A DNA stretch of 64,000 nucleotides from Polyangiaceae bacterium (GTDB taxonomy: Bacteria; Myxococcota_A; Polyangia; Polyangiales; Polyangiaceae). Of this stretch, positions 8,120 to 46,667 are shown piece by piece (the first letter of the stretch is position 1; each line of letters starts with the position of its first letter). The notes beneath the pieces are model-generated. The model made no database searches, had not been told where the DNA came from, and saw only the letters and a list, made by a program, of their open reading frames with translations. The stretch is taken from NCBI GenBank assembly GCA_020846005.1, contig JADLEQ010000001.1, positions 1 through 64,000 of the forward strand, given 5' to 3'. The position numbers and the translations under genes are program-made.

Positions 8120-8267
8120 CGCGCCCGCGCGCGCGCCTTCAACGTGGGAAGGAGCGGCCGGCGCCTGCCCGCCCGCTCGCGCGCCCGCCCGCCGCACCGG
8201 CGCACCAACGGGCTCGTGGCTGAGGAGGGGTGGGATGCGCCCCGAAGTCACCGTGCCACCATCAACC

Positions 8268-8534
8268 AGCCGGCGCGCGCACGCCCTCGCCTCGGGCCAG
8301 ACCGAGGACTGGGTGATCCGCCGCACCGGCCACGAGTCGTCGGCCATGCTGGCGAGGTACCGAAGGGAAGCCGCGACCGCAGAGGAGCTTGGCCTCGGCT
8401 GGCTGAAGCCGATGCACGACACGATCCCAGAGCTTGCGCGTGCCGACACGGCCGCCTCCGAGGTCCAGTCGTCGGGGAACTGTCGGAAGACGGAGCCCGC
8501 TCGGGAACACGCGCGTGGAAGCGATCTCAACTAG
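8268..8534 (+). pseudogene. Tyrosine integrase remnant 1 (C-terminal end only)
   Basis: In-frame residues include SGQTEDWVIRRTGHESSAM followed by ARYRREA, then LGLGWLKPMHDTIPEL and a TAG stop. R-T-G-H and the R-Y of ARYRREA match the conserved His block and catalytic Tyr region of tyrosine recombinases, and the tail matches the usual end of myxobacterial phage-integrase-family proteins (L-G-x-x-x-P-x-x-x-x-I-P-E-L). The catalytic core with the first Arg and Lys is absent and no start is credible, so this is a decayed 3' end. Confidence 0.7.
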
Positions 8535-8550
8535 CCGAGCCGGTTCGCGG

Positions 8551-8563
8551 GTGCACGAGGAGG
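8551..8563 (+). repeat. att-like 13-bp direct repeat, copy distal to tRNA-Leu
   Basis: GTGCACGAGGAGG is identical and in the same orientation to 8837-8849, the 3' end of tRNA-Leu. It lies exactly where homology of the second integrase fragment begins (after it the frame reads ALANGRPEAWV). This is the arrangement left when an element integrates in a tRNA 3' end. Confidence 0.6.
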
Positions 8564-8718
8564 CCCTGGCCAACGGCCGTCCCGAGGCGTGGGTGATGCA
8601 GCGCACCGGGCACACCGCGTCGGCCATGCCGAACCGGTACCGGAGGCACGCCGAGTCGATCCTGGAGTCGAAGCTCGGCTGGTGCGAGCCGCCGCACGAG
8701 GCCATCCCAGAGCCTGCA
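8563..8718 (+). pseudogene. Tyrosine integrase remnant 2 (C-terminal end only)
   Basis: The frame reads ALANGRPEAWVMQRTGHTAS, then NRYRRHAES, then LGWCEPPHEAIPEPA. It is a diverged parallel of remnant 1 (same R-T-G-H, R-Y and tail blocks) but stops matching upstream at the 13-bp repeat. The frame runs on to a TAA at 8884 inside the tRNA gene without recognisable protein sequence. It points towards the 3' end of tRNA-Leu, the normal place for an island integrase. Confidence 0.7.
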
Positions 8719-8836
8719 ACCATGGCCTCCGATTCCGGCGAGGGCGGCGAATCGCCGGTGGAAACGCCGGTCGCCTCTCAGCCCGGCGATCGAAATCCGA
8801 CGCGGCTGCGTGGATGCACCGCAGGATTTCTGCTTT

Positions 8837-8849
8837 GTGCACGAGGAGG
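8837..8849 (+). repeat. att-like 13-bp direct repeat, copy inside tRNA-Leu 3' end
   Basis: GTGCACGAGGAGG read on the plus strand covers the discriminator base, acceptor 3' strand and start of the T-stem of the minus-strand tRNA-Leu. Its exact partner is 8551-8563, 286 bp away. Confidence 0.6.
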
Positions 8850-8919
8850 GACTCGAACCCCCAAGCCTTGCGGCGGCGGAACCTAAATCCGCTGCGTCTG
8901 CCAATTTCGCCACTCGTGC
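8838..8919 (-). tRNA. tRNA-Leu (anticodon UAG)
   Basis: The minus strand folds into a class II tRNA: acceptor GCACGAG/CTCGTGC with discriminator A, a D-arm containing AATTGGCAGACGCA, and anticodon stem GCGGA/TCCGC with loop TTTAGGT giving anticodon TAG. A long variable arm (CGCCGCAAGGCTTG) and a T-arm with TTCGAGT complete it. Anticodon plus long variable arm identify leucine. CCA is not encoded. The gene is divergent from the WYL regulator, and its 3' end carries the att-like repeat. Confidence 0.95.
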
Positions 8920-44778: not shown

Positions 44779-46667
44779 CGGCGCCTCCGCGGCTCGCCGC
44801 CCCGCTCCACCACGCGGAGCACGCGCGGGAGCCGCTGGGCGCCGCCGAACCCGCGGGCGTCGGTCGTCCACAGGGGCGCCTCCGCGCTCGCGAGCGCGCG
44901 GCGCGCCCGCTCGTGCAGCGCCGAGACGCGCAGCGCGTCCTCGGCGCGCTCCTCCGGGAAGCTCACGATGGCGGCGCGCGCGAGCGCGGCGGCGTCGCGC
45001 CCGAGCGCCTCCCACCACCCCGGCGGCGACCCCGCGCGCGCGACCCACGCGGCGTGGGCGGCGGGCGGCGCTCCTCCCTCTCCCCCCTCCGGGTAACTCC
45101 CCGACGTGAGCACCGCGAGCCGCGAGGCCGGGGCCGCGCCCGCGGCCGCCACCGCCGCCTCCAGCCCGAAGCCGAGGGTCGCTTGCAGGCGCGCCTGCTC
45201 GGCCTCGCGGAGCAGCTCGCGGGCGCAGCCCGCCGAGCCGAGCAACAAAACCGCGGGGACGCGCGCGGCCCGCCACGCACCGACGGGGAACCGCGTGCCG
45301 CCGCCCACCGGTCGCGCGCGCTCGCAGTCGACGTCTGCCCCCGGGCCCCCGACGACCGTCCGGCCCTCGCCCAGCGCGGCGCCGAGCGCCCGCCGCTCCT
45401 CCCCCGGCGCGGCGCCCGCCTCGAAGACGAACGGCGACGCCAGTGCGTCGCCCGCGGGCGAGGCGAGCAGCACCAGCGGGACCCCGGCCACCGCGGCCCG
45501 CCGCCCTGCGGCGGCGCTGGTGGCGTCATCGACGCCCGCGATCACGATGAGCGCGCCCTCGGACGCCGCAGCGGCGACGGCGCGCTCGCCGTCCCCCGGC
45601 CCGCCGGCGTCCTCGACCGTCACCAGGTCGACGCCGCGCCCGGCGCCTCGCGGTAGCCCGAGCGCGTGCAGCGCGCCCGACACGATGGCGGACGAGCGGG
45701 CCCGGGTGAGCGCGTCGCGCGTCGCCACGACGACCCCGACCACCCGGCCCTCGACGCGCGCCTGTCGCCCGCCTCCGGCGGCGAGGGCGGCGAGCCGCGC
45801 ACCGCGCTCCGACCTGCGAAACGCCGCGGGCGCCTGATCGAGGAGGCGCCTCGCGAGCTCGCCGTCCGAGCCCGCGAGCGCCGCGTCGACCAGGCGCTCG
45901 CGCAGCGCCTCGCGCAGCCACTCGCGGGCCGTCGTGGCGGCGTCCCGGCGCCCCGGATCCTGGCGCGCCTCGGCGTCGAGATCCGCGAGGGCGCGCTCCG
46001 CCGCGGCCAGCGGGATCCGTCCCGCCAGCGCGCCCGTCGCCGCGCGGACCGCCGCGCGCTCCTCGAGCGGCGCGAGCGCGAGCCAGTCGCGTAGCGCGAG
46101 GACGGCCGTCTGGTACCGGCGCGCGGCGAGCGCCGCCTCGGCGAGCTCCTCGGCGTGGAGCGCGAGCTCGTCGGGGTCGAACAGGCGCCCGCGCAGCGGC
46201 AAGAGGAGCTCGACCGCGCCGTCGGCGTCGCCGCGGCGCCTGGCGATCGCTGCCTCGGCCACGCGCGCCAGATCGCGCTCGCGCCCCGGTCGACCGGCCC
46301 CGACCTCGCGCACGATCGCGCGCGCCTCGACGAGCCCGCTCCCCCCCTGGTCGACGAGCGACCACGCCAGCATCACGCGCGCGAGCCGCGCACGCCCGTC
46401 CTCGGGGTGCGCGGACAGGAACGCACGGAGCGCGGGCTGCATCCCCGATCGATCGTCGCGCTCTCGAGCCCAGCGAGCGCGGAGCTCGCGGAAGGCGCGC
46501 TGCGCCTCCCGCGTCCCGGCGACCTCGACGCGAGGCGCGTGCGCGTCCGGCCCCGGCCCACACGCCGGGCCGCCGAGGGCGACCGCGGCCAGCGAGAGCG
46601 CCGCGGCCCGGGCGCGCGCCCACGCGGCGCGCGCTCGCCTCGCGGGGGCAGGGGACACGGGGGTCAC
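44775..46667 (-). CDS. LppC/LpoA-like lipoprotein (TPR plus periplasmic-binding fold)
   Basis: 630 residues. GTG start, signal peptide with lipobox LGGPAC. Residues ~45-310 are helical and TPR-like; residues ~320-600 resemble a type 1 periplasmic-binding fold ([46 protein letters not shown]). This order matches LppC/LpoA proteins that activate penicillin-binding proteins, though sequence is diverged and the assignment is by architecture. TAGCTT lies 7 bases before the GTG and there is no Shine-Dalgarno. First gene of the overlapping unit with tsaE and mlaE. Confidence 0.7.

Follow-up and report, generated by a model that had tools for sequence, protein, structure and literature searches.

The region at 8246–8919 of the window (the whole stretch of 64,000 nucleotides analysed here, from a genome assembly of 5.7 Mb in 119 contigs, designated G000) very probably represents a two-layer scar of tRNA-targeting integrative elements, which were inserted in tandem and then lost; we assign this reading a probability of about 0.8. 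The scar is an ordinary genomic fossil, for which the known processes of tRNA-targeting integration and decay account well, and it documents stacked integrase tails from repeated insertions at one presumably essential tRNA.

The tRNA-Leu gene and the two integrase remnants

The integration target, an intact tRNA-Leu(TAG) gene, was identified by ARAGORN at 8837–8919 on the minus strand. No second Leu(TAG) gene is apparent in the assembly, and the gene looks single-copy, since the one further tRNA match to this region was tRNA-Leu(CAA) on contig C81. ARAGORN also called a tRNA-Arg(TCG) at 45365–45462 of the window, which is unusually long (98 bp) and may be a false call.

Two integrase stubs, both on the plus strand, precede the tRNA gene. 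Stub 1 (8283–8534; element 1), assigned by tblastn and tree, is the C-terminal tail of one tyrosine recombinase lineage and ends at a stop codon. Stub 2 (8563–8836; element 2), assigned by tblastn, tree, and blastn to an integrase on contig G116:C33, is the tail of a Leu(TAG)-specific tyrosine recombinase of another lineage and is 5'-truncated at the codon that begins the ALANG motif. Both are real tyrosine recombinase tails with the motif ALANG..RTGH..Y. Homology starts at 8283 in stub 1 (ALASGQTEDW...) and at 8563 in stub 2 (ALANGRPEAW...), and the HDLRATFVT-like residues found just before ALANG in the intact relatives compared are absent from both. The set of catalytic residues is incomplete, GH and Y being kept while HxxR and everything upstream are gone, and the stubs alone fall below the match level of the PF00589 (Phage_integrase) profile; intact relatives match it with E values of 2.8e-13 (G116:C33), 4.4e-10 (G022), and 5.2e-17 (G024). 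No intact family member, and none with the HDLR half, was found in G000.

At the DNA level, the alignment of stub 2 with the G116 integrase runs from 8562 through the tRNA gene (369 bp, 77% identity, E = 9e-76). An earlier note on this DNA had placed the start of family similarity of stub 2 exactly at a short repeat lying distal to the tRNA; this was borne out, as homology to intact integrases begins at 8562–8563 and the stub does not align upstream of the repeat. The intact integrases at this tRNA-Leu that the note proposed to look for are present in relatives, e.g. G116 and G109.

In a tree of integrase tails that rests on about 51 residues, G116 and G109, whose Leu(TAG) integrases are intact, provide the neighbours of stub 2 (support 0.92), and the neighbours of stub 1 come from Leu(TAG) loci in G022 and G014. 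The sequences nearest to stub 1 by tblastn and tree are the G014:C88 stub, an integrase tail on G119:C37, and the G022 integrase. A simple duplication as the origin of the two stubs was rejected: homology stops at ALANG in both, their upstream sequences differ, and they belong to separate lineages. The earlier view of a single tRNA-targeting element that lost nearly everything except its integrase tail stands as regards the targeting and the tail, and the two lineages in the tree replace the single element. Stub 1 had also been described as the more diverged copy, starting at 8268. Its identity to the family consensus box is in fact the higher one (67 vs. 60% for stub 2), and its match starts at 8283, the segment before it (8246–8282, minus strand) being the end of an IS-like repeat.

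This 37-bp segment abuts stub 1 and matches, at 87%, the outer end of a multicopy repeat (TGTGCGCGCGCCGGCTGGTTGATGG...) found at eight G000 contig ends (C6, C23, C28, C50, C65, C66, C103, and C119), where the outer ends show 98–100% identity over 126 bp. The contig breaks there look like k-mer-limited assembly breaks at a multicopy mobile element. A related repeat end occurs in G025 (L103; 79% over 63 bp) after a gene that is JetD-like by eye. A similar IS-like end in front of stub 2 was also considered and discarded, the similarity there being no better than that of 423 of the 1729 window segments (a quarter).

The same integrase family is present in named relatives that belong to Polyangium, Sorangium, Byssovorax, and other Polyangiaceae or Myxococcales, and the window therefore very probably comes from a Polyangiaceae-like myxobacterium. 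In a phage contig from a DAMO/AAA enrichment culture (L115; Virus Rctr16k, KX853514.1), the integrase has a C-terminal box with 92% identity to the family consensus, a hint that phages are among the elements of this integrase family.

Attachment block and islands in related genomes

The 13-mer GTGCACGAGGAGG occurs at 8551–8563 and at 8837–8849 of the plus strand in the same orientation, 286 bp apart, as the earlier note had reported; both copies are exact, and they are the only exact matches in the whole window. With up to two mismatches, 13 matches were found in the window vs. 4.55 expected. The 3' end of the tRNA lies at 8837 (ARAGORN), the very base with which the second copy of the 13-mer begins. 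When the left flank of stub 2 was shuffled 300 times, no shuffled sequence scored as high as the 13-bp match to the tRNA 3' end.

Islands are present at the same tRNA-Leu(TAG) in six relatives (G011, G014, G016, G021, G022, and G024), each with a second copy of the tRNA 3' half at its border. This identical or near-identical block of about 51 bp runs from GTGCACG... (tRNA 3' end) to GGAACCTAAA (anticodon loop). It starts at the tRNA 3' end in five of the six relatives, or within a few bases of it, and identity extends further outward, up to about 17 bp, in G014 and G021. The position of the 13-mer is included in all six blocks: the 13-mer is exact at the distal island border in G016 and G022, and its position forms part of the 51-bp border block in G011, G014, G021, and G024. 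The islands range from 3.1 kb (G014) to 27 kb (G022) between blocks, and relatives still hold intact islands at the same tRNA. Among the genes of the 27-kb island of G022 (L294–L295, G022:C1, about 540.4–567.6 kb) are type I restriction-modification genes and one for an AriA/Old-like ATPase; an apparent second tyrosine recombinase was also seen in it. By eye, the genes of the 3.1-kb element of G014 (L074, G014:C88) resemble an AbiE-type pair; the tRNA-Asp(ATC) called beside its integrase stub is doubtful.

In the window, the tRNA-proximal block spans 8837–8887 (51 bp, plus strand), as defined by the border alignments in the six relatives. Of the displaced block, only the first 13 bp (8551–8563, plus strand) are left of the expected 51, bases 14–51 being missing, and it was therefore identified by position as much as by sequence. 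Judged from the alignments, the 13-mer can be regarded as an attachment-site remnant that corresponds to the tRNA-terminal outer end of the 51-bp block. The earlier proposal of an att core was thus right about an attachment remnant and wrong about the core. The crossover presumably takes place near the anticodon loop, because the block in the relatives ends there; this loop is one of the known tRNA subsites for integration (PMC4383910).

The spacing of tails and tRNA genes was examined in 156 distinct integrase tails of the family, distances being measured from the ALANG codon to the tRNA 3' end. A tRNA 3' end faces the tail (opposite strand, within 600 bp) in 74 of the 156; tails with the tRNA on the other strand (16) were counted apart from these. 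The distance ranges from 182 to 380 bp (median, 263.5 bp), with a single outlier of 555 bp, which is stub 1. For stub 2 the distance is 274 bp; for stub 1 it becomes 268 bp when the ALANG codon is measured against the 13-mer at 8551 instead of the tRNA. The most economical interpretation is that the tRNA ended at 8551 at the time of the first insertion (element 1) and that the arrival of element 2 then displaced this end. The 13-mer at 8551 is in the right place as the distal site of element 2 and, by geometry, also as the tRNA-proximal site of element 1.

Proposed history of the scar

From the geometry and phylogeny, we infer the following order of events. A Leu(TAG)-specific element of the stub 1 lineage would first have inserted into the 3' half of the tRNA gene, so that the tail of its integrase came to lie about 268 bp from what is now the attachment site at 8551. 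Next, an element of the second Leu(TAG)-specific lineage (stub 2) would have used this tRNA as its target; the 3' half that it brought along would have restored the tRNA gene, and the old 3' end would have been displaced to 8551. Finally, element 2 would have been lost by a deletion that joined base 13/14 of the displaced block to the integrase codon ALANG, the junctions of which are seen in the window. Element 1 appears to have been cut at the same codon, where the IS-like repeat end now sits. The tRNA-proximal junction would have survived while the rest decayed because the tRNA is apparently single-copy and presumably needed. The scar is most likely inert, as the stubs lack both the N-terminal half and the HxxR box and no intact integrase of the family was found in the genome.

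The suggestion in the earlier note that stub 1 reflects an earlier event agrees with this order; its use of divergence as a sign of age failed, and decay does not confirm the order of events, because stub 2 shows no lower divergence than stub 1. A less decayed parallel is found on G014:C88, where the order is outer integrase remnant, displaced block, 3.1-kb element, integrase stub, and tRNA. Neither an empty nor a full homologous site was found, and the deletion cannot be reconstructed from an intermediate because the genes flanking the tRNA in the window are not beside the tRNA in the relatives examined.

Recurrent break of integrase genes at FVTL/ALANG

The 5' limits were mapped for the 156 integrase tails with queries that began at ALANG, and shorter tails are thus under-sampled. 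Whereas 105 tails reach at least 280 residues upstream and 6 lie at contig edges, 45 scored shorter. Not all of the 45 are real breaks: four are frameshifts (L158, L136, L182, and L185) and one is an insertion (L262), which were excluded from the breaks, and others are weak-scoring continuous genes near −18. Upstream of −40, 18 breaks are spread over roughly 240–260 codons; within 8 codons around FVTL/ALANG there are, by our own reading, 12 (L220, L156, L238, L157, L129, L149, L151, both window stubs, L127, L074, and L197), the break calls having an error of a codon or two and several loci being from draft assemblies. At least two of the 12 (L156 and L238) are internal deletions ending at FVTL/ALANG. 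A Poisson estimate for the clustering is about 1e-12, which is a post hoc count in that the position was chosen after it had been seen; the excess persists without the window's own stubs. Integrase breaks probably cluster at FVTL/ALANG more than chance allows, and this clustering is the only part of the present findings that might be new.

The left partners of the breaks are unrelated to each other: an apparent kinase gene end (L157), the region before another reading frame (L129), the IS-like end (window stub 1), and a hairpin-rich repeat at a contig end (L151). Sequence of the tRNA 3' end is found at the break only in window stub 2 and, weakly, in L129. L151 (G119:C39) and L279 (G119:C315), both at contig ends, are apparent halves of one integrase that is split at ALANG by the hairpin-rich repeat CCCCGGCTTTGCCGGGG.

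Two simple causes were considered. Microhomology cannot alone explain the excess, because other integrase positions score higher than ALANG, where 8-mers are about 1.8 times as frequent as the integrase average in the window. Mimicry of the tRNA T-loop does not explain the clustering by itself: CGAAC is commonest at the ALANG codon (36 hits among 105 intact copies), and as a whole, the ALANG site shows no remarkable likeness to the tRNA next to it (mean z, 0.56). We tentatively raise the idea, which we consider rather doubtful, that FVTL/ALANG is a genuine breakage or insertion hotspot at many tRNAs, cut by the integrase itself or by site-recognising insertion sequences and thereby disarming residents. 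If it were true, the two stubs of the window would be independent cases lying next to each other, and the family would have a recurrent way of having its integrases inactivated.

Alternative explanations

The 13-mer at 8551 might be a chance resemblance within a decayed integrase gene, with only the tails at the tRNA being real. The match is indeed only 13 bp long with the rest of the 51-bp block absent, and a clear attachment remnant is missing from most of the other loci that are broken at this point. A coincidence is nevertheless improbable, given that the match begins exactly at the tRNA 3' end, sits exactly where integrase homology begins, lies at the distance from stub 1 that the family geometry predicts, and was not equalled by any shuffle; furthermore, at L129, located beside a tRNA-Leu(CAA), the corresponding junction carries 10 bp from the 3' end of that tRNA. 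We regard it as still more unlikely that the interval is a non-autonomous mini-element of about 290 bp, made up of an attachment site, the integrase 3' end as an arm, and a second attachment site, and mobilised in trans. The retained tail has about the length of a typical attP region (approximately 250 bp; PMC4383910), and similar tails recur at other tRNAs, both of which would suit such an element. Against it, the displaced site lacks bases 14–51 including the crossover in the anticodon loop, so that site-to-site recombination should not work, and no integrase of this family is left in the genome to act on it.

The least probable reading takes its model from phage Mx8, whose attP lies inside int (PMC6070905): if the attachment site of the stub family lay within the integrase gene at ALANG, integration itself would split off the tail at the attachment core, and tails starting exactly at an attachment remnant would be explained. 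The intact relatives at this tRNA, however, read through HDLRATFVT-ALANG with no tRNA-like sequence there or upstream of ALANG; the attachment block of these relatives follows some 260 bp further downstream, where int ends. In Mx8 Int itself, by our reading, the tRNA-like stretch follows the catalytic tyrosine and is not at the ALANG position. The two-layer scar of tandem insertions remains the preferred reading.

Comparison with known systems

Like the stub family, Mx8 has a myxobacterial tyrosine integrase. The int coding sequence of Mx8 overlaps with an attachment site that is tRNA-like, and several integrases of the stub family also read into the tRNA. The site differs in its relation to the break, being located here downstream of the break point rather than at it. 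No close sequence relation of the stub family to Mx8 was found, and Mx8 is absent among the phage matches listed. The closest intact counterpart of stub 2 named above, the integrase on G116:C33 (L245 and L292), comes from a genome of the same family as that of the window and shares with stub 2 the target tRNA-Leu(TAG), the orientation, and the distance; unlike stub 2, it is intact (474 aa, Pfam Phage_integrase). No distal island border was found on contig G116:C33.

The locus can also be compared with the genomic islands in tRNA genes, including tandem arrays, as defined by Islander (PMC4383910). It differs from these in that its integrases are C-terminal tails, the displaced fragment is 13 bp long, and the interval is 286 bp; it would fail both the 2-kb length filter and the integrase requirement of Islander. 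A complete integrase gene between the sites is replaced by a tail that begins at ALANG, and the full attachment block with the crossover is not present at both ends. Because the integrase is represented only by its C-terminal tail, the locus is classified as a remnant of a tRNA-gene island and not as a member of the class. It resembles Islander-type islands in its intact tRNA gene, its displaced fragment of the tRNA 3' end, which lies on the correct (3') side in the same orientation, its tyrosine integrase gene at the tRNA-proximal end, and its tandem layers.
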